Assembly (NCBI GenBank): GCA_022843405.1
Contig: JALHNQ010000020.1
Coordinates: 1 to 53,896 of the forward strand
Source of the DNA: Methylocystis sp.
GTDB lineage: Bacteria; Pseudomonadota; Alphaproteobacteria; Rhizobiales; Beijerinckiaceae
Reading direction: 5' to 3'
Length of the DNA stretch: 53,896 bases
Shown: piece by piece, positions 1 to 28,763 of the stretch
Position numbering within the stretch: the first letter of the stretch is position 1
How the letters are laid out: every line of letters begins with the position of its first letter
Translations under genes and position numbers: made by a program
The notes under the pieces: model-generated
Seen by the model: only the letters and a program-made list of their open reading frames with translations
Told to the model about the DNA's origin: nothing
Database searches by the model: none

Positions 1-249
1 CCGGACTATCTGTTGGCGGACCGCGGTCTGTCGACGGACCCGACGCCGATCGCGCCGGGCGAGACCAAGGAAGTCGCGGTGAAGGTGCAGGACGCGCGTT
101 GGGACATCGAGCGTCTGTCTGACCTGGCTTACGACACCGACAGCCAGATCGGCGGCCTGCTGCTGTTCTTCTCGCCGTCGGGACGCCGCTTCGCGGCCGA
201 AATCGGCGGTCCGGTGATTCCGAAGTTCGTCGCGGGCGACATGCCCTAA
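1..249 (+). CDS. pmoB: Particulate methane monooxygenase subunit B, C-terminal part
   Basis: This is the 3' end of a gene that starts outside the window; 82 codons are visible, reading from base 1 (PDYLLADRG) to a TAA stop. The residues match the C-terminal cupredoxin-like domain of PmoB from Methylocystis/Methylosinus, including the end PVIPKFVAGDMP. PmoB is the largely periplasmic subunit of the membrane-bound methane monooxygenase, which oxidises methane to methanol and carries copper sites. In type II methanotrophs it is the last gene of pmoCAB, and the strong terminator directly downstream agrees with that. The copper-binding N-terminal domain is not in view. Identification rests on recognising the C-terminal sequence. 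Confidence 0.93.
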   Translation, partial: PDYLLADRGLSTDPTPIAPGETKEVAVKVQDARWDIERLSDLAYDTDSQIGGLLLFFSPSGRRFAAEIGGPVIPKFVAGDMP

Positions 250-273
250 GCGAGACTGACGAATTATAAAAAA

Positions 274-302
274 GCCCCCGGCCCATAAAGCCGGGGTTTT
301 TT
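274..302 (+). terminator. Rho-independent terminator after pmoB
   Basis: A perfect 7-bp stem, CCCCGGC (276-282) and GCCGGGG (290-296), encloses a 7-nt loop and is followed by six T residues (297-302). It lies about 25 bases after the pmoB stop and should end the pmoCAB transcript. Confidence 0.93.
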
Positions 303-605
303 GTTGGCAAACGTGCCGAGGCTCGACATGAAGCCGACGCGCCGCCCATCGATGATGGCGTCCGTCCGCGCGATCTCCGACCCATGAGTTTGGCGCGCGC
401 TCTACGCATTCTGGAGCCGTTCTAGGTTCTTCTCGGCGCTGCGGCTCTCCTGTGTTCGCGCCGCCACTGCGCTTGTTTCGTCGAGCCGCGCTTACTATAA
501 AACGGCGGAGCTCCCTTAGGATCGGCGGAGCCGTCGACGCCGTAAAGCCGGTCTCCGCTCGCTTATCACCTTTGACACCGCGCCCGAGGAGCCCGCGCCG
601 CCGCA
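303..605. other. Intergenic region between pmoB terminator and rcnA
   Basis: About 300 bases with no convincing gene. The overlapping reading frames here look like shadows of rcnA or chance frames. The promoter of rcnA must lie here, but I see no clear -35/-10 pair. A GGAG about 15 bases before the ATG at 606 is the best ribosome binding site candidate. Confidence 0.5.
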
Positions 606-1505
606 ATGTCCGATCTTTCCGAAGTCTTCCGCGCCGGCGCGGAGAACGCCTGGATTTTCGCGCCGAGCGCCGTGGCTTTGGGCGCGCTGCACGGGCTCGA
701 ACCCGGCCATTCAAAAACGATGATGGCGGCGTTCATCGTCGCGATTCGCGGCACGGTCGCGCAGGCAATTCTACTTGGCCTTGCGGCGACCATCTCGCAC
801 ACGGCGATTGTTTGGGCGATCGCGCTGACGGGACTCTATTTCGGCGCGAAACTCAACGTCGAAGCGAACGAACCCTATCTGCAGATCATTTCAGGCGCGC
901 TGATCATCGCCGTCGCTCTCTGGATGATCTGGCGAAGCTGGCGCGATATCGCGGCCGGCAGACCCGCTTCGGCGCCCGCGCAGGAGAGCGGGCGCGTTCC
1001 GGCAGTCGTCGCAGCGCATGGGCATACGCACGACGGCGCGCACATTCATGCGCATGAGGCGGGCCTACCGCATAGCCATGAGGAAGAGGAATTCGAAAGC
1101 GAGCTGCTCGACGTCGATCCGACCGTCTATGCCGACTCGCATGAGCGCGAACATGCGTTGGATATTGAGCGACGCTTCGCCAATCGCCGGGTGACCACCG
1201 GACAGATCATTCTGTTCGGTCTGACCGGAGGGCTCATTCCCTGTCCGGCGTCGATCACCGTGCTGCTCCTTTGCCTACAGGTCGGACGCATCGGACTGGG
1301 CGCGCTGCTCGTGCTGTGCTTCAGCGTCGGTCTGGCGCTGACCCTCGTGCTGGTCGGGGTGGCGGCGGCGCTTGGCCTACGGCACGCGGCTTCGCGCTGG
1401 CCGGGGTTCGAAGCCCTCGCGGCGCGCGCGCCCTATCTCTCCGGCGCGATCGTCGCCGCAATCGGCGCCTATACGATCGCGGCGGGCGTAGCCGCATTGG
1501 CGTAA
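606..1505 (+). CDS. rcnA: Nickel/cobalt exporter, RcnA (NicO) family
   Basis: A 299-residue polytopic membrane protein. The first helix region holds LGALHGLEPGHSKTMMAAF, the H-x4-GH-type metal motif of NicO/RcnA exporters. A cytoplasmic loop from about residue 138 is very rich in His and acid (HGHTHDGAHIHAHEAG, then HSHEEEE), as in RcnA. A second conserved stretch, GLIPCPASITVLLL, opens the C-terminal helices. The family pumps Ni(II) and Co(II) out of the cytoplasm. The start at 606 fits the family's usual N-terminus. The stop abuts the stop of the convergent SDR gene with no spacer. No RcnR-like regulator is adjacent. It could export another divalent metal; substrate is inferred from family. 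Confidence 0.86.
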   Translation: MSDLSEVFRAGAENAWIFAPSAVALGALHGLEPGHSKTMMAAFIVAIRGTVAQAILLGLAATISHTAIVWAIALTGLYFGAKLNVEANEPYLQIISGALIIAVALWMIWRSWRDIAAGRPASAPAQESGRVPAVVAAHGHTHDGAHIHAHEAGLPHSHEEEEFESELLDVDPTVYADSHEREHALDIERRFANRRVTTGQIILFGLTGGLIPCPASITVLLLCLQVGRIGLGALLVLCFSVGLALTLVLVGVAAALGLRHAASRWPGFEALAARAPYLSGAIVAAIGAYTIAAGVAALA

Positions 1506-2393
1506 TTATTTGTCGGCGTGAAACGCCAATTTCGTCACCCTGGCGGTGATCGGCGCATCGAGGAAAAAATCGAGCGCCGCATCGACCCGGGGATCGACCG
1601 CGTAGGTCGAGAAGTCGGTCATGCCTTCTTCCTTCAGGACCTCTACGTCGATGAAGAAATTGCTGCTGCAGTTCTTTGCCGGACGAACGAGAATGGCGTG
1701 CGCGGCGTCGGCGACGATCTCGGGCTTACGCGACCGGCGCAGCAGTTCCTCGCCGCCGAGCAGATTGCCGATCGCCGCGGTCGCGATCGCGGTCTCAGGC
1801 CACAGCGAATTGACGGCGACGCCGTCGCCTTCGACATCCCGCGCAAGCCCCAGCGTCACCAAGCTCATCCCATATTTCGACATTGTGTAGGCGAGGTTGG
1901 GCGAGAACCATTTGGGGTTCAAATCCATCGGCGGCGAGAGCGTCAATATGTGCGGATTGGCGGATTTGCGCAGATGCGGCAGCGCCGCCTTGCAGCAAAG
2001 ATAGGTTCCGCGCGCATTGATCTGATGCATGAGATCGAAGCGTTTCATCTCGAGCGCGTCGATGCCGCGCAGATCAATGGCGCTCGCATTGTTGACGAGA
2101 ACATCGATCGCGCCAAAGCAGGATGCGGCCTGACTAACCGCCGCCTCGACCTGATCCTCGAAGCGAATGTCGCACGGCACGGCGAGCGCCTGTCCGCCCG
2201 CTGCTTCGATTTCCGCCGCGGCGGTATAGATCGTGCCTGGAATTCTCGGATTTTCGGTCACGCTCTTCGCCGCGATGACGATATTCGCGCCGTCGCGCGC
2301 CGCGCGCAGGGCGATGGCGAGGCCGATGCCGCGGCTCGCGCCGGTGATGAAGAGCGTCTTGCCGGCGAGCGAGCGAGTCGTCATGGGCGCCAT
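1506..2393 (-). CDS. SDR family oxidoreductase, HSDL2-like
   Basis: A 295-residue short-chain dehydrogenase/reductase. The cofactor motif TGASRGIG is at residues 17-24, NNAS follows in the central strand, and the active-site Y-x3-K appears as YTMSK. The extra length past the usual 250 residues, and the sequence around LTLSPPMDLNPKWF, resemble the hydroxysteroid dehydrogenase-like 2 (HSDL2) group, whose physiological substrate is unclear. Met-4 (2384) is an alternative start; neither start has a clear Shine-Dalgarno. It lies 40 bases downstream of copA on the same strand, so it may be co-transcribed, but nothing ties it to copper. NAD(P) preference cannot be settled here. Confidence 0.82.
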   Translation of the reverse strand: MAPMTTRSLAGKTLFITGASRGIGLAIALRAARDGANIVIAAKSVTENPRIPGTIYTAAAEIEAAGGQALAVPCDIRFEDQVEAAVSQAASCFGAIDVLVNNASAIDLRGIDALEMKRFDLMHQINARGTYLCCKAALPHLRKSANPHILTLSPPMDLNPKWFSPNLAYTMSKYGMSLVTLGLARDVEGDGVAVNSLWPETAIATAAIGNLLGGEELLRRSRKPEIVADAAHAILVRPAKNCSSNFFIDVEVLKEEGMTDFSTYAVDPRVDAALDFFLDAPITARVTKLAFHADK

Positions 2394-2433
2394 GGCGCGC
2401 TCGCGCTCATCGTTCCAAGAAAAGCGCGGGGCT

Positions 2434-2637
2434 TCACGCGGCGACCTGCGCCGGATAGCCCGCTTCGGTGATCGCGTCGGCGAGCGCCTGCGCGTTTTTC
2501 GGCGCCGGGGTGACGTCGACCTTGCCGGTCGCGAGATCGACCTTGACGTCGGCGTTCGGCTCGACCGCTTGCACCGCCTTGGTGACGTGTTTCACGCACA
2601 TGCCACAGGTCATGTCCTTGACGTTGAATGTCGTCAT
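2434..2637 (-). other. Possible internally initiated CopZ-like copper chaperone
   Basis: Within and in frame with copA, the Met codon at 2637-2635 opens a 67-residue unit that is a complete heavy-metal-associated domain ([14 protein letters not shown], ending GYPAQVAA). This is the size and layout of free CopZ chaperones, which hand Cu(I) to CopA. A strong Shine-Dalgarno precedes it (separate entry). Translation from here would give free CopZ alongside the long CopA form. The motif and ribosome site are seen; independent translation is inferred. The arrangement could also be a relic of a fused copA-copZ pair. Confidence 0.5.
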
Positions 2638-5187
2638 CGCTTCCTCCTTGATTTGTTTTTCAGCCGCTTCCGTTTCGATTGGCGACGCTTGTTCGTCGAC
2701 CTCGGCGCTCGCGACGACCGGCGGCTGGAAACGGCGCAAGCGCAGCGCATTGGTGAGAACGAAGACGCTGGACAGCGCCATCGCCGCCGCGCCGAACATC
2801 GGCGAGAGCAACATGCCGTTTATAGGATAGAGCGCGCCAGCGGCGACGGGGATGAGCAGCACATTATAGCCGAAGGCCCAGAATAAATTCTGTTGGATGT
2901 TGCGCATCGTCGCATGCGAAATCGCCAGCGCCGCCGGAACTTTGGCGAGATCGCCCGACATCAGCACGACGTCGGCGGCTTCGATCGCAATGTCGGTTCC
3001 CGTGCCGATGGCGATCCCGGCGTCGGCGGCGGCAAGCGCCGGCGCGTCGTTCACGCCGTCGCCGACAAAGGCGATCTTGTTGGATTCCCGCAGACGTTCG
3101 AGCGTCGCGACCTTCCCGTCAGGAAGGACGCCGGCGACGACTTCGTCGATTCCAAGCCTTCTGGCGATGGCTTTCGCTGTACGTTCGTCGTCTCCGGTGA
3201 TCATCGCGGTCTTCACGCCGATCGAATGAATCGCGTCGATCGCCGCGCGGCTCGTCGGCTTCAGATCGTCGGCGACGCAGAGCATCGCGCCGAGCTTGCC
3301 GTCGACCGCGATGTAAAGCGGCGTCTTGCCTTCTTCAGAGAGTTTCTGGGCGTCCTGGGCGAAGGGGGCGGCGTCGACGCCGAGCGTCGTCATGAAGCGC
3401 TCGGCGCCGATGGCGACTTTCTTGCGGTCGACGATTCCCGTAACCCCCATGCCCGCCACGGATTTGAAGTCGGCGCAAGGCGAAAGCGAAAGGTCCGCGG
3501 CCTTGGCCGCGGCGACCAGCGCCGCGCCTACCGGATGTTCCGACTGCGCCTCGACACTGGCGGCGAGACGCAGCAATTCCTTGTCCTTCTTGCCGGGCAT
3601 AGCGACGAGATCGGTCAGGCGCGGCTTGCCATAGGTGAGCGTGCCGGTCTTGTCGAAGGCGATCAGCGTCACGTCGCGCAGCGTCTGCAGGGCCTCGCCC
3701 TTGCGGAACAATACGCCGAGCTCTGCTGCGCGCCCGGTGCCGGTCATGATCGCAGCAGGCGTCGCCAGTCCCATGGCGCAGGGGCAGGCGATAATGAGCA
3801 CGGCGACGGCGTTGACGAGCGCATACGTCAGACGCGGCTCCGGCCCGATCAGCATCCAGATGACGAAGGTCAGCGCCGCGACAGCAAAGACGGCGGGGAC
3901 GAAGACGGCGGTGACGCGATCGACCATCGCCTGAATCGGCAGCTTGGCGCCCTGCGCCTGCTCGACCATGCGGATGATGCCGGCGAGAGTCGTATCCGCG
4001 CCGACGCGGGTCGCGCGAAACGAGAAGGCGCCGGAGCCGTTGACGGTCGCCCCGGTGACCGCGGCGCCCGGCCGCTTGGCGACGGGCGCCGGTTCGCCGG
4101 TGACCATCGATTCATCGACATGCGACGCGCCTTGCGTCACCACGCCGTCGGTCGGAATGCGCTCTCCCGGCCGCACCAGAACGATGTCGCCGACGCGCAC
4201 GTCGTCGATATCGACGTCGACGGTCGCGCCGTCGCGCTCAATGCGGGCGGTCTTCGGTTGAAGCTTCGCCAGCGCGCGGATCGCTTCCGACGTGCGGCCC
4301 TTGGCCCGCGCTTCGAGATAGCGGCCGAACAGGATAAGGGTGACGATGACGACGGCCGCCTCGTAATAGACATGCACTGAACCGGCCGGCAGGACGTTCG
4401 GCGCAAAAGTCGCAACCACGGAATAGAGATAGGCGCTGAGCGTGCCCGTGGCGACGAGCGCGTTCATATCGGGCTGGCGTCGCAACAGCGACGGAATTCC
4501 CTTAAGGAAAAAAACCAGGCCGGGACCGAACAGCACGACGCTGGCGAGCAGGAAGGAAATCTCGCGAATCCTCGCTTCGCCGATCACGCCCATCGACCAG
4601 TGATGAATGGCGGGGATGAGATGTCCGCCCATTTCGACCGCGAAGATCGGCGCCGTCAAAGTAGCGGCGACGATGAGGCGGAAGCGCAGCGCGCGCATTT
4701 CCTCCTCGCGGCGCGCCCGTTCGCGATCGGCGCCGCCCGAATCGGTCTCGATCTGGCGCGGCTCATAGCCGGCTTGTGAAATGGCGCGGCGCAGGCGATC
4801 GGTGAGGCCGGGGCCGGTGAGCGCGCGCACGGATGCGCGTTCGGTGGCGAGATTGACTTTCGCCTCGATCACGCCCGGAACGGCGCTCAGCGCCTTTTCG
4901 ACATGCGAAACGCAGGAGGCGCAAGTCATGCCGCCGACGCCGATCTCGATCGTCTCGACGACCGCCTCGTAGCCCGCGTCCGAGACCGACTTTACGAGTT
5001 GGGTGAGACTCGCCCCCGGCGCGAGCGAAACCTCCGCCCGTTCGGTGGCGAGATTGACGCTGGCGGCCTTTACGCCCGGCGTATGGGCAAGCGCCTTCTC
5101 GACATGCGACACGCAGGAGGCGCAGGTCATGCCCCGGACGGAGAAGTCAAGGCGTTCGCCGCCCGGTAAAGGAGTTTGAGCGTTCAT
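2434..5187 (-). CDS. copA: Copper-transporting P1B-type ATPase with C-terminal CopZ-like domain
   Basis: A 917-residue CopA that exports Cu(I) from the cytoplasm using ATP. Two N-terminal heavy-metal domains carry MTCASC at residues 20-25 and 87-92. They are followed by the membrane domain, the transport motif CPC at about 468-470, the phosphorylation site DKTGT with Asp512, SEHPVG in the nucleotide domain, and the GDGVNDAP hinge. Unusually, a third heavy-metal domain with MTCGMC (about 859-864) is attached at the C-terminus after an acidic linker. I chose ATG 5187 because GAGG lies about 8 bases upstream; the frame is open to 5283, and Met at 5220 lacks a ribosome site. The upstream methyltransferase ends 38 bases before this start, so the two form an operon. 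Confidence 0.93.
2638..2649 (-). promoter_or_regulatory. Strong internal Shine-Dalgarno inside copA
   Basis: On the minus strand the bases read AAGGAGG, five bases (AAGCG), then ATG. This is a near-perfect anti-16S match at optimal spacing, placed in the linker exactly before the C-terminal heavy-metal domain of copA. Confidence 0.6.
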
Positions 5188-5224
5188 AGCGGCCGCCTCA
5201 TTCACAACGCCCTCGCGCATCAGT

Positions 5225-5710
5225 TTAAAGCCAGCGCCGCGTGCGCGCCATATAGGACCGGTAGTCGTCGCCAAATTTCGCAAGAAGATGCCGCTCTTCC
5301 GGCTCGATCGCGAGCTTTGTCAGCCCATAGGCGAGCGCCGGCGTCAACAGCAGCGTGAAGGGCGAGCCAAGGAACAGACCCAGTCCAAAGATCAAGGCGA
5401 CATGCGACACATAGATCGGATTGCGCGAAAAGCGAAACGGTCCCTCTGTGACGAGAAAAGACGCCGCGCGATGCGGCATGACCGTCGTCTGATGGCGCGA
5501 GAGAATGCGAAAGCAGCAGACATCGTTGACGAGCGCGAGCACGACAATGGCGGCCCCGGCGAGATGCGGGAGCGAAGAGGAGGCGCGATCGATGAGCGAA
5601 ACCAGCGTCGCGGCGTCGAGCGCCAACCCGGCGGCGAGCGTCAACGCCATCAAAATCGGCGGCCAAGGTATCGGGGAAGGCGGCCCGTCGACGCATATCG
5701 GCGCGTTCAT
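5225..5710 (-). CDS. Small membrane methyltransferase-like protein (ICMT/PEMT type)
   Basis: A 161-residue protein with several hydrophobic segments and the C-terminal signature of the isoprenylcysteine carboxyl methyltransferase/phospholipid methyltransferase superfamily: [13 protein letters not shown], then [19 protein letters not shown]. These residues bind S-adenosylmethionine in characterised relatives. The start at 5710 has GGAG eight bases upstream; the frame extends to 5743. It is the first gene of the transcript leading into copA. Such small methyltransferase-like genes are often found beside metal ATPases, but substrate and role are unknown. It may act on a lipid, a protein or a small molecule. 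Confidence 0.72.
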
Positions 5711-5787
5711 TGCGGCGACTCCATGAAACACTCGAAGAAACACCCATTATCTAAATCGCGTTTCGGCGCGACGGTTTCAAGTAGCTC

Positions 5788-5840
5788 GTCAAGGCAGGCT
5801 TGACAAGCGCAGCGCCTTTTGTCAAGGTTATCTTGACAAA
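5788..5840. promoter_or_regulatory. Twin palindromic operator between copper and biotin operons
   Basis: Two inverted repeats with the same core and spacer lie in the divergent intergenic region. The first is GTCAAG-N5-CTTGAC at 5788-5804. The second is TTTGTCAAG-N5-CTTGACAAA at 5818-5840, with perfect 9-bp arms. Their centres are 33 bases apart, about three helical turns, suggesting two dimers on one DNA face. The second ends 12 bases before the ATG of the zinc finger/HTH gene (5853); the first is about 78 bases from the methyltransferase-copA start. CTTGACAA also contains a possible -35 hexamer TTGACA. Autoregulation by the adjacent HTH protein is the simplest reading. Binding is inferred. 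Confidence 0.72.
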
Positions 5841-5852
5841 TCTGGATCTGCG

Positions 5853-6197
5853 ATGCTGGCCCTGCCCAAACGTAAACTGCGCTGCTCGTTTTGCAGAAAG
5901 ACGGAGACCCAGGTCTCCCGGCTCGTCGGCGGCGCCGCCGGCGGCTATATTTGCGAAGACTGCGTCGGCGTGTGCAACAAAATCCTCGACGCTGCGCCTT
6001 CGTCATTCAAAAGCTGGGACGATCTCACCGAGGAGCAGCTGTTGTCGTCGATCAAGGCGAGCGAGGCCAGCATCACCGCGCTGCATTCGCTCATCCATGT
6101 GCAGGTCGAGGCGCTTCGCAAACGCGAGGTGAGCTGGACGGCGATCGGCAAGGCGCTCGGCGTCTCCCGCCAAGCGGCCTGGGAGCGGTTCTCCTGA
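5853..6197 (+). CDS. ClpX-type C4 zinc finger / helix-turn-helix protein
   Basis: A 114-residue protein. Residues 9-45 match the zinc-binding domain of ClpX: Cys11, Cys14, Cys34 and Cys37 in C-x2-C-x19-C-x2-C spacing, with YICEDCVGVCNKIL closely like ClpX. The AAA+ ATPase part is absent. A helical middle (about 60-90) leads to a C-terminal helix-turn-helix, SWTAIGKALGVSRQAAWERF. The protein is therefore probably a small zinc-dimerised DNA-binding regulator, not a protease subunit. Twin palindromes sit directly upstream. bioF starts 17 bases after the stop, so it probably heads the bioFDA transcript. The ribosome site is weak. Function is inferred; a ClpP adaptor role is an alternative. Confidence 0.75.
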   Translation: MLALPKRKLRCSFCRKTETQVSRLVGGAAGGYICEDCVGVCNKILDAAPSSFKSWDDLTEEQLLSSIKASEASITALHSLIHVQVEALRKREVSWTAIGKALGVSRQAAWERFS

Positions 6198-6214
6198 TCC
6201 AGGATCGATCCGAC

Positions 6215-7348
6215 ATGCTTGATCGCTACGCGCAGGATCTCGCCGGCCTCGCCGTGCGCGGCAGATTGCGCAAGCTGGCGCCACGAGTCGGGATGGATTT
6301 CGCATCCAACGACTATTTGGCGCTCGCAGAATCGCCGGAACTCGCCGCGGCGGCGCGCGCGGCGCTCGCGCGCGGCGTTCCCATAGGGGCCGGCGGCTCG
6401 AGGCTTCTGCGCGGCAATCATTCGGAGCATGAGGCGCTCGAAGAAGACGCGGCGCGCTTTTTCGGCGCTGAAAGCGCGCTTTTTTTCAGCGCCGGCTTTA
6501 CCGCCAATGAGGCGCTGCTTTCCACCGCGCCTCAGCGCGAAGATCTCATCCTCTATGATGCGCTCGCGCACGCCAGCGCCCATGAGGGCATGCGATTGGC
6601 GCGCGCGCCAAATGCGCGATTTGCGCATAATGACGTCGGCGCCGCCGAGGGCGCGATCCGCGCCTGGCGCGAAAAGGGCGGGCGCGGGCGCGTCTGGATC
6701 GTGGTCGAGAGCCTCTACAGCATGGATGGCGATAGAGCGCCGCTCGACGATCTGTGCGCGCTCGCCGAGCAAAACGAAGCCTTTCTGCTGATCGACGAGG
6801 CCCATGCGACCGGCGTCTATGGTCCGGGCGGCCGCGGACTCGCGGCGCGTTTCGAAGGCAAGGACAATGTCATTACCCTGCATACCTGTGGCAAGGCGAT
6901 GGGCGTCGCGGGCGGTCTGCTCTGTCTGCCGCGCGTCTTGCGCGACTTCATGATCAACCGTTGCCGGCCGTTCATCTTCGCGACCGCGCCTTCGCCCATG
7001 ATCGCCGCTTGCGTGCGCGCGGCGCTCAAGATCATCGAGGCGGCTGACAACCGGCGCGCCGAGCTGATGTCGCGCATCGAGCTCGCTGGCGCCGAGCTGC
7101 GGCGCCTCTGTGCGATCGAGCCGTCGGGCAGCCAGATTCAACCCATCATTGTCGGCGACGATGTCCGCGCCACAACTCTTGCGTCGCGCCTGCAGGCGCT
7201 GGGCTACGACATTCGCGCCATTCGTCCGCCGACGGTGCCGGAGGGCTCCGCTCGGCTGCGCATCGCCCTGACGCTCAATACGCGAAAGGAAGAGGTCGCG
7301 CAGATGATCGCGCATCTTCGCGAAGAGCTGGCGAGGCTCGAACCATGA
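6215..7348 (+). CDS. bioF: 8-amino-7-oxononanoate synthase
   Basis: A 377-residue PLP enzyme that condenses pimeloyl-ACP/CoA with alanine to 8-amino-7-oxononanoate, the first ring-building step of biotin synthesis. Family motifs include GSRLLRGNHSEHEALE, the PLP-binding IDEAHATGVYGPGGRG, and HTCGKAMG with the Schiff-base lysine at Lys227. The ATG at 6215 gives the usual family length; AGGA lies about 11 bases upstream. The gene follows the zinc finger/HTH gene by 17 bases and overlaps bioD by ATGA, so translation is probably coupled. Confidence 0.93.
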   Translation: MLDRYAQDLAGLAVRGRLRKLAPRVGMDFASNDYLALAESPELAAAARAALARGVPIGAGGSRLLRGNHSEHEALEEDAARFFGAESALFFSAGFTANEALLSTAPQREDLILYDALAHASAHEGMRLARAPNARFAHNDVGAAEGAIRAWREKGGRGRVWIVVESLYSMDGDRAPLDDLCALAEQNEAFLLIDEAHATGVYGPGGRGLAARFEGKDNVITLHTCGKAMGVAGGLLCLPRVLRDFMINRCRPFIFATAPSPMIAACVRAALKIIEAADNRRAELMSRIELAGAELRRLCAIEPSGSQIQPIIVGDDVRATTLASRLQALGYDIRAIRPPTVPEGSARLRIALTLNTRKEEVAQMIAHLREELARLEP

Positions 7349-7980
7349 ACCGCCGCTTCGTCATCGTCGGCACGGATACGGATGTTGGCAAAACTGTCGT
7401 CTCCGCCGCGATCGTTGGAGCGCTCGACGCCTATTATTGGAAGCCGGTGCAGTCGGGGCTCGATGGCGAGACGGACTCGCAGACCGTTGCGCGGCTTTCG
7501 GGGACGCGGTCCGACCACATCGTCCCAGAAGCATGGCGGCTGCGTCGGCCGGCCTCGCCGCATCTCGCCGCGCGCGACGAAGGCGTCGACATCGACGTCG
7601 CCGCGCTGAACCCGCCGCAATGTGATGGTCCTCTGGTAATCGAGACGGCGGGCGGCGTGATGACGCCGCTCAGCGACCGCGCGCTGACGATCGATGTGCT
7701 GGAGCGGTGGCGGCTTCCCGTCATTGTCGTCGCGCGCACGAGCCTCGGCACGATCAATCACAGCCTGCTCACGCTCGAAGCGTTGCGCAGACGCGGCGTT
7801 TCAATAACGGGAATGATTTTCGTCGGCGACGCCGACGCCGACGCGCAACGCTCGATCGAGACGATCGGCGGCGTGCGTATTCTCGGCCGACTGCCCAAAC
7901 TCAATCCCTTGAACCAGAAGACGCTCGGCGCCGCGTTCAACGCCGCGATCGCGCGCGACGCCTTCGGGAGCAGCGCGTGA
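7345..7980 (+). CDS. bioD: ATP-dependent dethiobiotin synthetase
   Basis: A 211-residue enzyme that carboxylates 7,8-diaminopelargonate to dethiobiotin with ATP and CO2. The N-terminal P-loop GTDTDVGKTVVSAA and the WKPVQSG segment are diagnostic, and ETAGGVMTPL is the conserved second motif. It overlaps bioF at its start (ATGA) and bioA at its end (GTGA), so three biotin enzymes are made from one tightly packed message. Length is slightly short of E. coli BioD (about 225) but complete. Confidence 0.93.
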   Translation: MNRRFVIVGTDTDVGKTVVSAAIVGALDAYYWKPVQSGLDGETDSQTVARLSGTRSDHIVPEAWRLRRPASPHLAARDEGVDIDVAALNPPQCDGPLVIETAGGVMTPLSDRALTIDVLERWRLPVIVVARTSLGTINHSLLTLEALRRRGVSITGMIFVGDADADAQRSIETIGGVRILGRLPKLNPLNQKTLGAAFNAAIARDAFGSSA

Positions 7981-9245
7981 GCCTCGTCACAGACTCTGCG
8001 GTCTGGCGGCCGTTCACCCAGCATGCCCTGCAGCCCGGCGCCTTCAAGATCGCGCGCGCCGAAGGCGCCTGGCTCGAAGCCGAGGACGGCACACGGTTTC
8101 TCGACGCCATCTCGTCCTGGTGGGTGATTACGCATGGCCATCGCCATCCGGCGATCATGCAGGCGATCCGCGAAGAAACCGAACGGCTCGATCAGATCAT
8201 CTTCGCCGGCTTCACCCATGAGCCGGCGGAGGCGCTTGCGCGGCGCCTCGTCACGCTGACGCCGCCGGGGCTCGACTATGTGTTTTATTCCGACAGCGGT
8301 TCGACCTGCGTCGAAGTGGCGATCAAAATGGCGCTCGGCTTCTGGCGCAATCGCAATGACGCGCGCTCGCGCGTCATTGCGCTCGAATACGGCTATCATG
8401 GCGACACGATCGGAACGATGTCAGCCGGCGCGCGCTCGCCTTTCAATGCGCCTTATGAGCCGTTGCTCTATGAGGTGACGCGCATACCTTTCCCGATGCG
8501 CGGACGCGAGCAGCAAACGCTCGACGCGCTGGCGCGCGCCTGTCGCGACAAGCCCGCCGCCCTGCTCGTGGAGCCGCTCATCTTGGGCGCCGGCGGCATG
8601 CTGATGTACGGCGCCGATACGCTCGCGGAGATGAGGCGCATATGCGCCCATTACGGCGTGCTGTTTATCGCCGACGAAGTGATGACAGGCTTCGGACGCA
8701 CCGGAACGCTCTTCGCCTGCGAGCAGGCGGACGTCATTCCGGACATCGCCTGCTACGCCAAAGGTCTGACCGGCGGCGCGCTGCCGCTCGCCGTCACAAT
8801 GTGCAAGAGCGAGATTTTCGAGGCGCATCTGTCGCAGGATCGCGCGCGCGCGTTTTTTCACTCGAGCTCTTACACCGCCAATCCGATCGCTTGCGCCGCG
8901 GCGCTCGCCAATCTCGACGTGTGGGCGACGGGCGAACCCGCCGCCCGCGTCGCGGCGCTCTGCGACATGCAGGCGACGCGCATTGCGCGCTTTGCCGATG
9001 ACGCGCGCTTCTCGAACGCCCGCCGGCTCGGCATCATCACGGCGCTTGATCTCAATGTCGCGCAGAGCGGCTATCTGGCGAGCGTTTCGCTAGATCTCAT
9101 GCGCTTCTTCAACGAACGTGGACTGCTGCTGCGCCCGCTCGGCCCGACGATCTACGTGTTTCCGCCTTACTGCGTCGAGGACGCCGAACTCGATCTCGCC
9201 TATGAGGCGATCGGCGATGCGGCGGACCGTTTCGGCCGCGGTTAG
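7977..9245 (+). CDS. bioA: Adenosylmethionine-8-amino-7-oxononanoate aminotransferase
   Basis: A 422-residue class III aminotransferase that uses S-adenosylmethionine as amino donor to make 7,8-diaminopelargonate. Conserved segments include VWRPFTQH near the N-terminus, the substrate region ISSWWVITHGH, DEVMTGFGRTGT, and ACYAKGLTGGALPLA with the PLP lysine at Lys262. Start is GTG at 7977, overlapping the bioD stop as GTGA; later Met codons would remove the conserved N-terminus. The stop overlaps the convergent fadD stop by four bases. bioB, bioC and bioH are not in this window and must lie elsewhere. Confidence 0.92.
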   Translation: MSLVTDSAVWRPFTQHALQPGAFKIARAEGAWLEAEDGTRFLDAISSWWVITHGHRHPAIMQAIREETERLDQIIFAGFTHEPAEALARRLVTLTPPGLDYVFYSDSGSTCVEVAIKMALGFWRNRNDARSRVIALEYGYHGDTIGTMSAGARSPFNAPYEPLLYEVTRIPFPMRGREQQTLDALARACRDKPAALLVEPLILGAGGMLMYGADTLAEMRRICAHYGVLFIADEVMTGFGRTGTLFACEQADVIPDIACYAKGLTGGALPLAVTMCKSEIFEAHLSQDRARAFFHSSSYTANPIACAAALANLDVWATGEPAARVAALCDMQATRIARFADDARFSNARRLGIITALDLNVAQSGYLASVSLDLMRFFNERGLLLRPLGPTIYVFPPYCVEDAELDLAYEAIGDAADRFGRG

Positions 9246-11008
9246 CGTTCGAGCTCCGTGCGCACGTTGTTGCCGCGTCCCTCGTTGGGGACAACGTTCT
9301 TACGCGCGAGAAATTCTTCCTTCAGCGCGCGCCGCAGGATTTTTCCGACATTGCTCTTGGGCAGGCTCTCGCGAAATTCGAAATAGCGCGGAATTTTGTA
9401 GCTTGTCAGCTGCTCATGCGCGAAGGCGCGCAACTCCTCGCGCGTGAGGCTTGGATCGCGCGCCACGACAAACGCCATCGGCGCTTCACCGGAATGTTCG
9501 TGCGGCACGCCGATGACCGCCACCTCCTTGACTTTGGGGTGTTCGATCAGCACGGATTCAACTTCGTTCGGATAGACGTTGAATCCCGAAACAAGGATCA
9601 TGTCCTTCAGCCGATCGACGATTTTGATCAGCCCGTCCGGCGCCATGACGGCGATGTCGCCGGTCTTGAGAAATCCGTCGGCCGTCAGCGCATTCGCGGT
9701 TTCGTCCGGCCTGCGCCAATATCCCCCCATCAATTGCGGCCCCTTGACGCAGAGTTCGCCCCGCTCGCCCAAAGGAACGGGTTCGCCTTCGGGCGAGCGC
9801 ACCGAGATTTCGGTCGACGGCACGGGATAGCCGATACCGCCCGTAAATTCGGCGATTGTCGGCTTGTTGATCGTGACGATCGGCGACGTCTCGGTCAGTC
9901 CATAGCCCTCGACGATCGGCCTGCCGGTCAAAGCCTTCCATTTCTGCGCCACGACTTCCTGGGTCGACATGCCGCCCGAAATGGTGAGAAGAAGACTGGA
10001 ATAGTCCACCGACTTGGCCGCAGAATGATCGGCGATCGCCGCATAAAGCGTGTTGACGCCGGAAAATAGCGTGAACGGCGATTTGCGCAGCGTCGCGATC
10101 AGGCCCTTAATGTCGCGCGGATTGGCGATGAGCAGGCAACTGCCGCCGGTCTTCACCACGAGCATCAGGCAGGCGGTCAGACCGAATATGTGATAGAGCG
10201 GCAGCGCCGTCACCATGATCAACGGCTTATCCGCAAGATAGGGTTTCAACCAGGCCCACGACTGCTCGACATTCGCGGCGACGTTGCGATGGAGCAGCAT
10301 CGCGCCCTTGGCGACGCCGGTTGTGCCGCCGGTATATTGCAGAAAGGCGATGTCGTCAGGCCCGATCGGCGGCGGCTTGAACGGCTCCTCGGCGCCCGCT
10401 TGCAACACATGCGCGAAGCCGACGCAGCCGGGCAGCCGATAGGCGGGGACCATGCGTTTGACCCAGCGCGAGACCAAATTGACGATCAGTCCGCGCAGCC
10501 CCATCAGATCTCCGGGCTTCACAATCACCGCACGTTCGACTTTCATTTGCGGCCACGCGGCCGCGGCGGTATGCGCGAAATTTTCGAAGACGAACAAGAA
10601 CCGCGCGCCGGAGTCGTTCATCTGGTGTTCGAGCTCGTGCGGCGTATAGAGCGGATTGACGTTCACCACGACGCCGCCCGCGAGCAGGACGCCGAAGAGG
10701 ATCGTGGGATAGGCGAGGACGTTGGGCGACATGATCGCGACCCGATCGCCCTTCCTCAGCCCCCGGGTCTGCAGCCAAGCGGCGACAGCGACGGCGGCGC
10801 GGCCGAACTCCTCGAAGGTGAGCGTCGCGCCGAAGCTCTCCATCGCGGTTCGGTCGGCGAAGTCCACGACGCTCGCGTTGAACATATCGACCAGCGTCGA
10901 ATAGGACGATTGATCGATCTCCGCCGGAACGCCGGCGGGGTAGGACGACAGCCAGGGACGCTTCGCGTAAGGGTCCTCTCGGTTTTCCGCGCTCGTCATT
11001 GTCGTCAT
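9242..11008 (-). CDS. fadD: Long-chain fatty acid-CoA ligase
   Basis: A 588-residue AMP-forming acyl-CoA synthetase. The AMP-binding P-loop is seen as LQYTGGTTGVAKGAMLLHRN, followed by GYGLTETSP, the TGD motif (KTGDIAVM), and the FACS hinge RLKDMILVSGFNVYPNEVE. The catalytic lysine region is near the end (LPKSNVGKILRRAL). It activates fatty acids at the inner membrane for beta-oxidation or lipid remodelling. Two starts are possible: ATG 11008, only three bases after GGAGG, and ATG 10999, twelve bases after it; neither spacing is ideal. It is not obviously operonic with its neighbours. Chain-length preference cannot be read from sequence. Confidence 0.88.
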   Translation of the reverse strand: MTTMTSAENREDPYAKRPWLSSYPAGVPAEIDQSSYSTLVDMFNASVVDFADRTAMESFGATLTFEEFGRAAVAVAAWLQTRGLRKGDRVAIMSPNVLAYPTILFGVLLAGGVVVNVNPLYTPHELEHQMNDSGARFLFVFENFAHTAAAAWPQMKVERAVIVKPGDLMGLRGLIVNLVSRWVKRMVPAYRLPGCVGFAHVLQAGAEEPFKPPPIGPDDIAFLQYTGGTTGVAKGAMLLHRNVAANVEQSWAWLKPYLADKPLIMVTALPLYHIFGLTACLMLVVKTGGSCLLIANPRDIKGLIATLRKSPFTLFSGVNTLYAAIADHSAAKSVDYSSLLLTISGGMSTQEVVAQKWKALTGRPIVEGYGLTETSPIVTINKPTIAEFTGGIGYPVPSTEISVRSPEGEPVPLGERGELCVKGPQLMGGYWRRPDETANALTADGFLKTGDIAVMAPDGLIKIVDRLKDMILVSGFNVYPNEVESVLIEHPKVKEVAVIGVPHEHSGEAPMAFVVARDPSLTREELRAFAHEQLTSYKIPRYFEFRESLPKSNVGKILRRALKEEFLARKNVVPNEGRGNNVRTELER

Positions 11009-11142
11009 GGACCTCCGCGAGTCGACATGGTCGCGGATCGCGAATCGTCCGCTCCGCCAATTTGCTTGTGTTCAAGATAGCGCGCAAATGGCCGGATGAG
11101 GCCATGCCCGCCGGCAATCCTTATGCTGCGCCGCGAGCGGCG

Positions 11143-12144
11143 TCACGCCGAGCCTGTGGACATCGGCGCGAGGCCGAAGAGCAGCGCAACGCCGAGCGCC
11201 AGAACCAGGATTGCGGCGATGAACTCGCCGCCGCGCGCGATGATGATCGTGCGGCGCGAATCCTTCGCCCCAAGCCGCATCGCGGCGCCCTTGGCGTAGA
11301 CCGCGGTCGCGGCGAGCGCGCCTGTCGTTATCGCGGTCCCGGCCGACATGGCGATGACCGCTCCGGCGCCGGCGGCGAAAAGACCCTGCGATAGGGTGAA
11401 CGCCAGGACGAGAATCGCTCCCGAACAGGGACGCAGGCCGGCGGCGATGACGGTGGCTGCGGCGTCGGCGAGGCGAAACTTTGACCCTGTCAAAGTCGAC
11501 GGGTCCGGCGCATGGCGGCAGTTTTCGTCATGCACATGGGTCGGATCGTCGATCGCCTCACAGACGAAGCCGCGCGTCGAGGAGGCGATTGCGGGCGCCC
11601 TGAGCGCGGACGACAGCGCGCAGCCCTTGACCCAGGCGAGACGCGCTCCGACCGCGGCGACCGCCGCATAACTGACAAGCTCGATCATACGCGTCGCTGC
11701 GCTCATCTGAGTGGCGGTTGCGCGGAAAATCGCCGCGGCGGCGCCGACGACGGCGATCGCGACCAGCCCCTGCAGGAGGGCGGCGAGCGCCGCGAGCAGC
11801 AGTCCGCGTCTCAGCGCCGTTTCATTGGCGAGCATGTAAGATGCAAGCACCGCCTTGCCGTGGCCGGGACCGGCGGCGTGAAAAGCGCCATAGGCGAAGC
11901 TCGCCGCGGCGAGGGCGAAAAATGCGGAAGGATCGGTCTTGAGCGCCCGCACCGCGGCTTGCAGTTCAGCCTGGAACTTGCTTTGCCAAGCGAGAATGAG
12001 TCCCGCAAAGCCCGTCGCCGATCCAACGGACTCTTGCGCCCCGACGGCGAATGGATGACGTGGCGCGCACCACGCCGAAGAGGCCACGATCGCGACGACC
12101 GCCGCAGCCGCTACGCCGATCCAGAAGGCCTTTCGCCCAAGCAT
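11143..12144 (-). CDS. NicO family nickel/cobalt transporter
   Basis: A 333-residue integral membrane protein. It has the NicO signature in FAYGAFHAAGPGHGKAVLASY, a moderately His-rich loop (DDPTHVHDENCRHAP) and a second motif at GLRPCSGAILVLAF. The start was set at ATG 12144 because it overlaps the DUF1007 stop as TGATG; the frame is open upstream but those residues lie inside the neighbouring gene. The DUF1007-NicO pairing is known in proteobacteria as a metal transport unit, often predicted for Ni, Co or Zn. Uptake or efflux cannot be decided from sequence. It is clearly distinct from the RcnA-type copy at 606-1505. Confidence 0.82.
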   Translation of the reverse strand: MLGRKAFWIGVAAAAVVAIVASSAWCAPRHPFAVGAQESVGSATGFAGLILAWQSKFQAELQAAVRALKTDPSAFFALAAASFAYGAFHAAGPGHGKAVLASYMLANETALRRGLLLAALAALLQGLVAIAVVGAAAAIFRATATQMSAATRMIELVSYAAVAAVGARLAWVKGCALSSALRAPAIASSTRGFVCEAIDDPTHVHDENCRHAPDPSTLTGSKFRLADAAATVIAAGLRPCSGAILVLAFTLSQGLFAAGAGAVIAMSAGTAITTGALAATAVYAKGAAMRLGAKDSRRTIIIARGGEFIAAILVLALGVALLFGLAPMSTGSA

Positions 12145-27498: not shown

Positions 27499-28763
27499 TT
27501 TTTCATTCGATTGCCTTGCGCGCGCGGCGGCGCTCCGCGCGCTGGCTTTGCGCGCTCGTCTTCGCCGCTGCCCTCGGCGCTGTCGCCGTCTGCGGCCGAA
27601 GTCGCGTGCACGATCTGAACTTTTGCGCCGTCCGACAGCCGGGAGAAGCCGCTCGTCAGGACGACCTCGCCAGGCTGAAGCCCCGAAGTGATGACGGCGA
27701 TTTTCTCATCCTGTCGGCCTGTCGTCACCTCGCGGATTGTCGCGATATCATCGGGGCCCAGCACATAGACGAAAGCGCCGCTCGGACCGCGTTGCACCGC
27801 GTGGCTCGGGGCCACGACCACCTTCTTCAGCGTGTCGAGCGTCAGGCGCACATTAACGAATTGGCCAGGCCAGAGCGCCAGCGATTGATTCACAAAAATC
27901 GCTTTGATACGCACCGTTCCCGTCATCTGGTCGATCTGGTTATCGATGACGCTTAGCTCTCCGATTTCGATCGGCGTCGCGTTGTCGGGAGCGAGCGCCG
28001 AGACCTTGGCCGCTCCGTCGGCCTGCGCTTTCTGCACCGCCGGCAACGTCTGCTGCGGCACGGTGAACACAACATAAATCGGTTTCAGTTGCGTGATGAC
28101 GACAATGCCGGTCGCATCTGAGGCGTGCAGAATGTTGCCCACGTCGACGAGACGGATGCCGGCGCGGCCGTCGATCGGCGAGCGGATCGTCGCATAGTCC
28201 AGCGTCGTCTTTGTATTATCGATCGCAGCCTTATCAGCCCGCACCAGCGCTTCAAGCTGAGCGACCGTCGCCTTTTGGGTAGCGTGCTGCTGCTTGGAGG
28301 CAAAATTGCCGACGACGAGTTTTTCGTAGCGGGCCATATCGACGCGGGCGTTGGCGAGATTGGCCTCGTCCTGCGCCTTCTTGGCGACGGCCTGATCATA
28401 TTGCGCCTGATAGAGCGCCGGATCGATTTCGGCCAGGATGTCGCCTTTGCGGACGTCCTGTCCCTCGGTGAAGGCGAGACGCAGCAGCCGCCCATCGACC
28501 TGCGTGCGGATCGTCACCGTGTTGAGCGCCTGAACGGTGCCGACCGCATCGATGGTCACCGGCACGTCGTCGAGGCGGGTCTTCGCCGCTGTCGCCGTAA
28601 CGACACCACCCCCCGGGCCGCGGGAACGCGCTGCGCCGGGACCCTGGTCCTTGGCGGCGAAGCCAGGGAGCTTTCCCGACTGATAGGCCCAGGCCAAGGC
28701 GCCTGCGAGCGCGAGCGCGCCGATCGCAAGCAGCGCTTTTCGGCTGACGCGGCTCATGGCCAT
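27495..28763 (-). CDS. mdtA: RND efflux periplasmic adaptor, MdtA-like
   Basis: A 422-residue membrane fusion protein. A single N-terminal hydrophobic segment (about residues 9-26) anchors or exports it. A Gly-rich linker leads to the lipoyl half-motif VDGRLLRLAFTEGQDVRKGD, a long coiled hairpin (KAQDEANLANARVDMARYE), the second lipoyl half (IRSPIDGRAGIRLVDVGN), and beta-barrel domains. It links the permeases to the outer membrane channel. ATG 28757, which overlaps the upstream stop as ATGA and sits nearly ten bases after AGGGG, may be the true start. The C-terminus is charged (GSGEDERAKPARGA). Confidence 0.88.
   Translation of the reverse strand: MAMSRVSRKALLAIGALALAGALAWAYQSGKLPGFAAKDQGPGAARSRGPGGGVVTATAAKTRLDDVPVTIDAVGTVQALNTVTIRTQVDGRLLRLAFTEGQDVRKGDILAEIDPALYQAQYDQAVAKKAQDEANLANARVDMARYEKLVVGNFASKQQHATQKATVAQLEALVRADKAAIDNTKTTLDYATIRSPIDGRAGIRLVDVGNILHASDATGIVVITQLKPIYVVFTVPQQTLPAVQKAQADGAAKVSALAPDNATPIEIGELSVIDNQIDQMTGTVRIKAIFVNQSLALWPGQFVNVRLTLDTLKKVVVAPSHAVQRGPSGAFVYVLGPDDIATIREVTTGRQDEKIAVITSGLQPGEVVLTSGFSRLSDGAKVQIVHATSAADGDSAEGSGEDERAKPARGAPPRAQGNRMKK

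Follow-up and report, generated by a model that had tools for sequence, protein, structure and literature searches.

Which promoter does a small regulator gene serve when it stands between a divergent methyltransferase-copA pair and the biotin genes bioFDA, preceded by two palindromes with the same core? This question is raised by a locus of Methylocystis sp.; the window, that is, the whole stretch of DNA that was analysed, comprises 53,896 nucleotides. A sequence-only reading had proposed a zinc-dimerised autoregulator that also controls bioFDA and possibly copper export. Here we compare the gene, its palindromes and its neighbours across genomes, and we relate the protein to known regulators.

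The locus and its 114-residue protein

The features are listed by their coordinates in the window.

5225-5743, minus strand: PEMT-family methyltransferase gene, divergent and followed by copA; start uncertain, GTG at 5743 or ATG at 5710
5775-5780, minus strand: TTGAAA, a candidate -35 for divergent transcription, 7 bp to the left of operator 1
5788-5804, no strand: operator 1, GTCAAG-N5-CTTGAC, found by direct reading and repeat search
5818-5840, no strand: operator 2, two perfect arms of 9 bp flanking GTTAT, found by direct reading and repeat search
5853-6197, plus strand: 114-residue protein with a ClpX zinc finger (residues 10-46), a helix and a ClpC2-type HTH (about residues 95-113); proposed autorepressor
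6215-7348, plus strand: bioF, probably co-transcribed with the 114-residue gene
7345-7980, plus strand: bioD
7977-9245, plus strand: bioA, GTG start

The two palindromes that the sequence-only reading had described, 33 bp apart and one of them with perfect 9-bp arms, were recovered by direct reading and a repeat search. Core 1 is GTCAAGgcaggCTTGAC (5788-5804) and core 2 is GTCAAGgttatCTTGAC (5821-5837), with the spacing counted from start to start. Core 2 widens to TTTGTCAAG-GTTAT-CTTGACAAA (5818-5840), and 12 bases lie between the end of operator 2 and the ATG at 5853. The description of the gene as a ClpX zinc finger with a C-terminal HTH, ahead of bioF and divergent from PEMT-copA, was likewise confirmed by the coordinates and by Pfam: the ATG of bioF (6215) follows 17 bases past the stop, and bioD and bioA come next.

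A 21-bp pattern with at most three mismatches was found twice in the window compared to 0.05 expected, and two hits were reached in one of 100 shuffles; the 17-bp core with at most two mismatches was found five times compared to 1.2 expected. In the host genome, GTCARG-N5-CYTGAC occurs at six places, compared to two for a backward control. Two of these are the palindromes of the locus, two more precede another copy of the gene, and the remaining two are singletons, which were rejected as real targets as both lie inside coding frames. The second copy (G000 contig C67, 2779-3120; L002) is 89% identical and comes with twin operators, a bioF and a copA of its own. In a BioF tree, the BioF encoded beside it clusters with other species, and the copy may represent strain contamination of the assembly. 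Rfam gave no match at the gathering threshold in positions 1-12000 of the window.

Within the protein, Pfam zf-C4_ClpX (PF06689) covers residues 10-46 (E 7.9e-15), and the C-terminal HTH obtained sub-threshold Pfam matches only. No AAA+ domain was matched by Pfam or NCBIfam, and the NCBIfam ClpX models align to residues 5-77 only. The finger has the same cysteine pattern and fold as the zinc-binding domain of ClpX (PDB 2ds5-2ds8, 1ovx); in contrast to ClpX, it is fused to an HTH, the AAA+ motor is absent and the polar surface has diverged. A ClpX unfoldase was ruled out, as there is a finger but no motor. An AlphaFold2 model (mean pLDDT 87.4, pTM 0.48, the placement of the domains being unsure) contains the finger, which is followed by a long helix (60-90) and two further helices (95-102 and 106-113), and the top Foldseek entries are ClpX zinc-finger crystals, none with E < 0.001. 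The gene is under purifying selection, as seen from a low median omega of 0.075 (120 pairs among 16 Methylocystis-type copies). PADLOC gave no match, and PHROGs gave weak matches to finger-type and HTH families.

Relatives and their operators

Scanning a genome collection for relatives, we found 138 and kept 80. These belong mostly to Alphaproteobacteria and Nocardioides, and also to Binatia and other Actinomycetota, with a single record each from Chloroflexi and Myxococcales. Most of them were retrieved by way of RQAAWERF as an exact peptide, and many of them are closely related to each other, so that the counts are not independent; due to this way of fetching, the apparent invariance of the recognition helix is biased. 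A profile search of 385 alphaproteobacterial genomes provides a less biased check and detected members (E<1e-20) in four genomes among the matches listed. Furthermore, a search at the level of the phylum detected members in 2 of 398 genomes (E 1e-21), both with twin operators and one of them a new genome. The family is thus sparse. In the open-access PMC literature, we found no paper that describes regulators combining a ClpX finger with this HTH.

The strict core GTCARG-N5-CYTGAC was found within 300 bp upstream of the gene in 43 of the 44 loci outside Methylocystis and Nocardioides, and 33 of these have two or more. It was also found upstream in all 13 Methylocystis loci whose upstream DNA is long enough and in 4/4 Methylocystis paralogues; the shuffled controls gave about 0.01 in total and the backward control 0. 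A lack of conserved palindromes upstream of orthologues had been named beforehand as a refuting outcome; among these 44 loci, the strict core is lacking only from L086, which carries twins with a 4-base spacer. The spacing between operators varies between 18 and 48, and 21 of 45 spacings fall at 26-28.

When the search was made blind to the protein, twin operators were detected in three of the 385 alphaproteobacterial genomes and in none with the backward control, each time before this gene (Fisher p 4e-7 for twin operators and gene presence). In the fourth of the four genomes with a member (G441, L162), the recognition helix is altered (GVSHQIAQERF), and we detected no operator. In a count over 44 genomes, the core was found 168 times, compared to 80 times with the control; 77 of the occurrences are located at the gene's own promoter, which suggests a regulon close to one promoter.

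The genes around the relatives are not common between lineages, and BioF, BioD, PEMT and CopA were not detected near any of 66 loci outside Methylocystis (threshold 1e-8). Yet 43 of the 44 loci outside Methylocystis and Nocardioides carry the operator; it thus appears to belong to the protein and not to biotin. As shown by comparison of loci, the operator travels with the ClpX-finger-HTH protein, and the proposed autoregulation via twin palindromes gains strong comparative support from the upstream sites and from the twins found at the gene in the protein-blind search.

The positions of the operators relative to promoter elements point in the direction of repression. In 17 of the 44 loci, compared to 3.6 expected, an operator right arm TTGAC is followed by TAnnnT at 15-18 bp, and in 15 of the 17 this -10 lies inside another operator; the -35/-10 rule does not hold for the remaining 27 loci. 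Furthermore, CTTGAC is commoner in right arms than its mirror is in left arms (p 2.7e-4). Both observations suggest an overlap of operators and promoter elements, which is what a repressor would be expected to show. At the locus itself, the right arm of operator 1 (CTTGAC, 5799-5804) is likely the -35 of a rightward promoter with a weak -10, and operator 2 would lie over the expected -10/start region. We regard repression through the twin operators as highly likely.

The Nocardioides loci are arranged differently. The upstream operator is missing in 21 of 22 of them, and 13 have instead an operator within 150 bp after the stop, which occurs in 0 of the 44 other loci. In 11 of the 13, the palindrome follows the stop at 13-15 bp (L091, L092, L094, L096-L099, L101, L104, L105 and L112). 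By eye, the post-stop palindrome adjoins a hairpin with the loop TCACGGGGGTGAG. An Rfam scan of ten loci, seven of them from Nocardioides, yielded one tRNA only and no match for the hairpin in the scanned loci.

Several further occurrences were observed. Paralogues with 41% identity and the helix SRQTAWERF are present in the genus Methylocystis (L020-L023), where they sit in other surroundings according to a crude gene caller, and a similar one is present in the same family (L189); the paralogue operators are mainly GTCAGG/CCTGAC (5/6). In a Phenylobacterium MAG whose genome has the regulator, two operator-like sites 51 bp apart precede an MFS-type transporter gene (L156, 1530-1597), which is a possible second target. 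Among mobile elements, we found four plasmid records (two covering 80% of the query), 33 phage records (one covering 80% of the query) and five loci on viral contigs. One of the latter (L210) is a full-length relative with 50% identity and one operator 81 bp upstream, and three others (L211-L213) combine this HTH with a different N-terminal region, with no strict operator seen. In Microbacterium phage PensacolaC28 (L209, 1425-1782), the HTH gene 19 (GIRRQSAQERY) has GTCAGGTTGAGCCTGAC ahead of it; from this gene, the HTH-operator module may also serve phages.

ClpC2 and the possible role of the finger

What kind of regulator is the protein? When compared to six ClpC2-type N-termini, the C-terminal HTH matched with an hhalign probability of 97.9% (E 3.1e-13, 46% over 35 columns), and this profile comparison shows it as an HTH of the ClpC2 type. 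The link is missing from the sequence-only reading, and we judge it the better lead. With a profile of the C-terminal half, the closest solved HTH is RelI (9sdc, E 3.4e-11). The ClpC2 crystal fragment 8ada is matched as well (E 0.0058), up to the end of its chain, just before the recognition helix.

According to Taylor et al. (2023, PMC10030653), ClpC2 represses itself via CGTCAAC-n5-GTTGACG, an operator that is repeated upstream in many genomes and overlaps -35 and -10. Cyclomarin A releases this repression, and ClpC2 is described as an antibiotic sponge. ClpC2 dimerises by its HTH half and not by its Clp domain, and DNA binding is assigned to the C-terminal, ClpC-like domain (PMC10030653). 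Of seven ClpC2-type loci that we inspected, four have twins 28-29 bp apart, which in three cases match GTCAAC-N5-GTTGAC when up to one mismatch is allowed; in the other three loci, the pattern that we used gave no twins.

The ClpX-finger protein thus resembles ClpC2 of mycobacteria and other actinobacteria in three respects: the type of HTH, a Clp unfoldase docking domain without the motor and a duplicated palindrome with 6-7 bp half-sites and a 5-base spacer over -35/-10 at its own promoter. The two differ in that the former has a ClpX zinc finger at the N-terminus whereas ClpC2 has a ClpC domain at the C-terminus, and in the inner base of the half-site, which is GTCAAG in the window and GTCARG in the family compared to GTCAAC in ClpC2 (CGTCAAC as published). 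As the ClpC1-like N-domain is absent, the protein would work like ClpC2 without being a member of that group; by analogy, it may form a dimer, bind DNA and a ligand, and act as a sponge. We consider it rather probable that it is a small autorepressor built like ClpC2, with the ClpX docking domain replacing the ClpC N-domain.

The comparison also bears on ClpC2 itself. Its recognition helix, as predicted here, falls between the crystallised fragments 4-72 and 94-252 (PDB 8ada / 8ad9). Since the two groups have only the HTH in common and follow the same operator plan, we argue that the HTH reads the DNA; tentatively, this would hold for ClpC2 as well, in place of the ClpC-like domain.

A similarity between RelI and ClpC2 has already been noted in the paper on RelS-RelI (PMC13284704). 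Of the solved structures, RelI, an antitoxin, comes nearest to the HTH half; it differs from the ClpX-finger protein by lacking a zinc finger and by having a toxin partner. The paper on RelS-RelI reports no inverted repeats upstream, and the words ClpX and zinc are absent from it (PMC13284704).

In the mechanism that we propose, a dimer would use its C-terminal HTH to bind each of the GTCARG-N5-CYTGAC palindromes, and the bound sites would cover the -35 and the -10/start, by which the protein would shut its own promoter. The finger might act as the sensor: once a ligand is bound, repression would lift and more finger would be made, and the extra finger could compete with ClpX for the ligand.

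In ClpX, the zinc-binding domain docks adaptors and substrates, and the finger is a dimer. Two sets of observations are relevant to whether the finger of the 114-residue protein is a decoy. In all four Binatia loci (L059, positions 5903-6490; L061, L063 and L064), the twin operators are followed, after 23 bp, by a free finger-only reading frame of 62 residues and then, overlapping it, by the full gene. This short finger fits a sponge or a modulator and hints at a decoy. What the relatives keep of the ClpX finger is chiefly its cysteines and its hydrophobic or glycine positions (36 of 50 rows comparable), and the polar positions of ClpX are poorly kept (for instance, Q in 5, H in 4, R in 2 and T in 3 of 36). 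As the polar surface of ClpX is not kept, we slightly lowered our estimate for a ClpX decoy, and by analogy with ClpC2 we suggest a decoy role of the finger as a tentative possibility.

It is conceivable, though less than probable, that several phyla have a ClpX counterpart of ClpC2: a self-repressing decoy that uses a ClpX docking finger to sense natural products, or proteins of phage or host, by which ClpX is attacked or overloaded, and that then floods the cell with free fingers, in Binatia also with a stand-alone finger. Alternatively, the protein could simply be an autorepressor whose ClpX finger serves for dimerisation only and neither senses a ligand nor acts as a decoy. This would agree with the dimeric finger of ClpX and with the kind of positions that were kept from it. 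However, it would leave the finger-only frame of Binatia (4/4) without a purpose, unless that is a modulator, and ClpC2 dimerises via its HTH half and not its Clp domain (PMC10030653). We consider a finger that only dimerises doubtful.

Biotin and copper neighbours in Methylocystis

If the protein is a ClpC2-like autorepressor, how did it come to stand before bioF? A search in the genus found bioF in 36 of 39 genomes, and 30 loci were examined. The gene is located between PEMT-copA and bioF in 17 of the 30; both palindromes are present in 16, and one locus is cut by the contig end. In all 13 gene-less loci, PEMT-copA diverges from bioF, the strict palindrome is absent and, by eye, bioF has a plain TTGAC-type promoter. 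In the BioF tree, 18 gene-bearing rows form one clade (100/100) and L046, on a long branch, is placed elsewhere, which suggests one or two gains. Most likely, the gene and its operators were inserted as a unit; a loss elsewhere is less likely. The biotin link is thereby shown, by comparison of loci, as lineage-specific. We expect with good confidence that bioFDA is co-transcribed with the 114-residue gene; in the Methylocystis clade, bioFDA would then be read from the autoregulated promoter of the inserted gene.

Alphaproteobacterial biotin genes are often controlled by BioR (GntR) or BirA, whose sites look different. The BioR box is TTATMKATAA, and the window contains only two BioR boxes with one mismatch, at 27940 and 37689. 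The genes for BioR or BirA are likewise found next to biotin genes, but these regulators have other domains and other sites, and the biotin link of the ClpX-finger protein is confined to Methylocystis among the loci examined. The protein could still be a dedicated biotin regulator that senses biotin status and controls bioFDA, with self-control being secondary, as the gene lies 17 bp before bioF in 17/17 gene-bearing loci of the genus. However, none of the 66 loci outside Methylocystis is near BioF or BioD, bioFDA runs without the gene in the 13 gene-less loci, the host genome has no other real site, and no biotin-binding, GntR or biotin-ligase domain was matched in the protein. We thus consider a dedicated biotin regulator improbable, and biotin sensing unlikely. 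Control of bioFDA, as the sequence-only reading had it, is plausible as a side effect specific to Methylocystis; it does not extend to the other lineages, and the co-occurrence with bioF that had been suggested as a check was absent at those 66 loci.

Control of copper export is not supported, apart from the position of operator 1. Operator 1 is only 7 bp from the candidate divergent -35, and a protein bound there could reach that promoter and also, or mainly, control the methyltransferase-copA pair. However, the pair diverges in the same way in the 13 gene-less loci, and copA and PEMT are absent near the 66 relatives; we regard such control as quite improbable. By eye, the TTTCAA of the candidate -35 is present in gene-less genomes, too. 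As a function of the family, biotin or copper regulation was rejected on this neighbourhood evidence. That the protein is an antitoxin similar to RelI, working with a toxin partner, is very improbable: RelI is the closest solved HTH, but the neighbours in Methylocystis are bioF and PEMT-copA, and those of other relatives vary between lineages.

With the ClpC2-like autorepressor as the preferred reading, a group of regulators is described here together with its operator. Because of the link to ClpC2, the mechanism can be tested directly; the link also suggests that decoy regulators may exist for ClpX, too, and it re-opens the question of which part of ClpC2 reads the DNA. In one clade of methanotrophs, a vitamin operon is now probably under the autoregulated switch of another gene. 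If the decoy reading is true, one HTH-operator module has been combined with two different Clp docking domains, which would represent a general design for guarding proteases.
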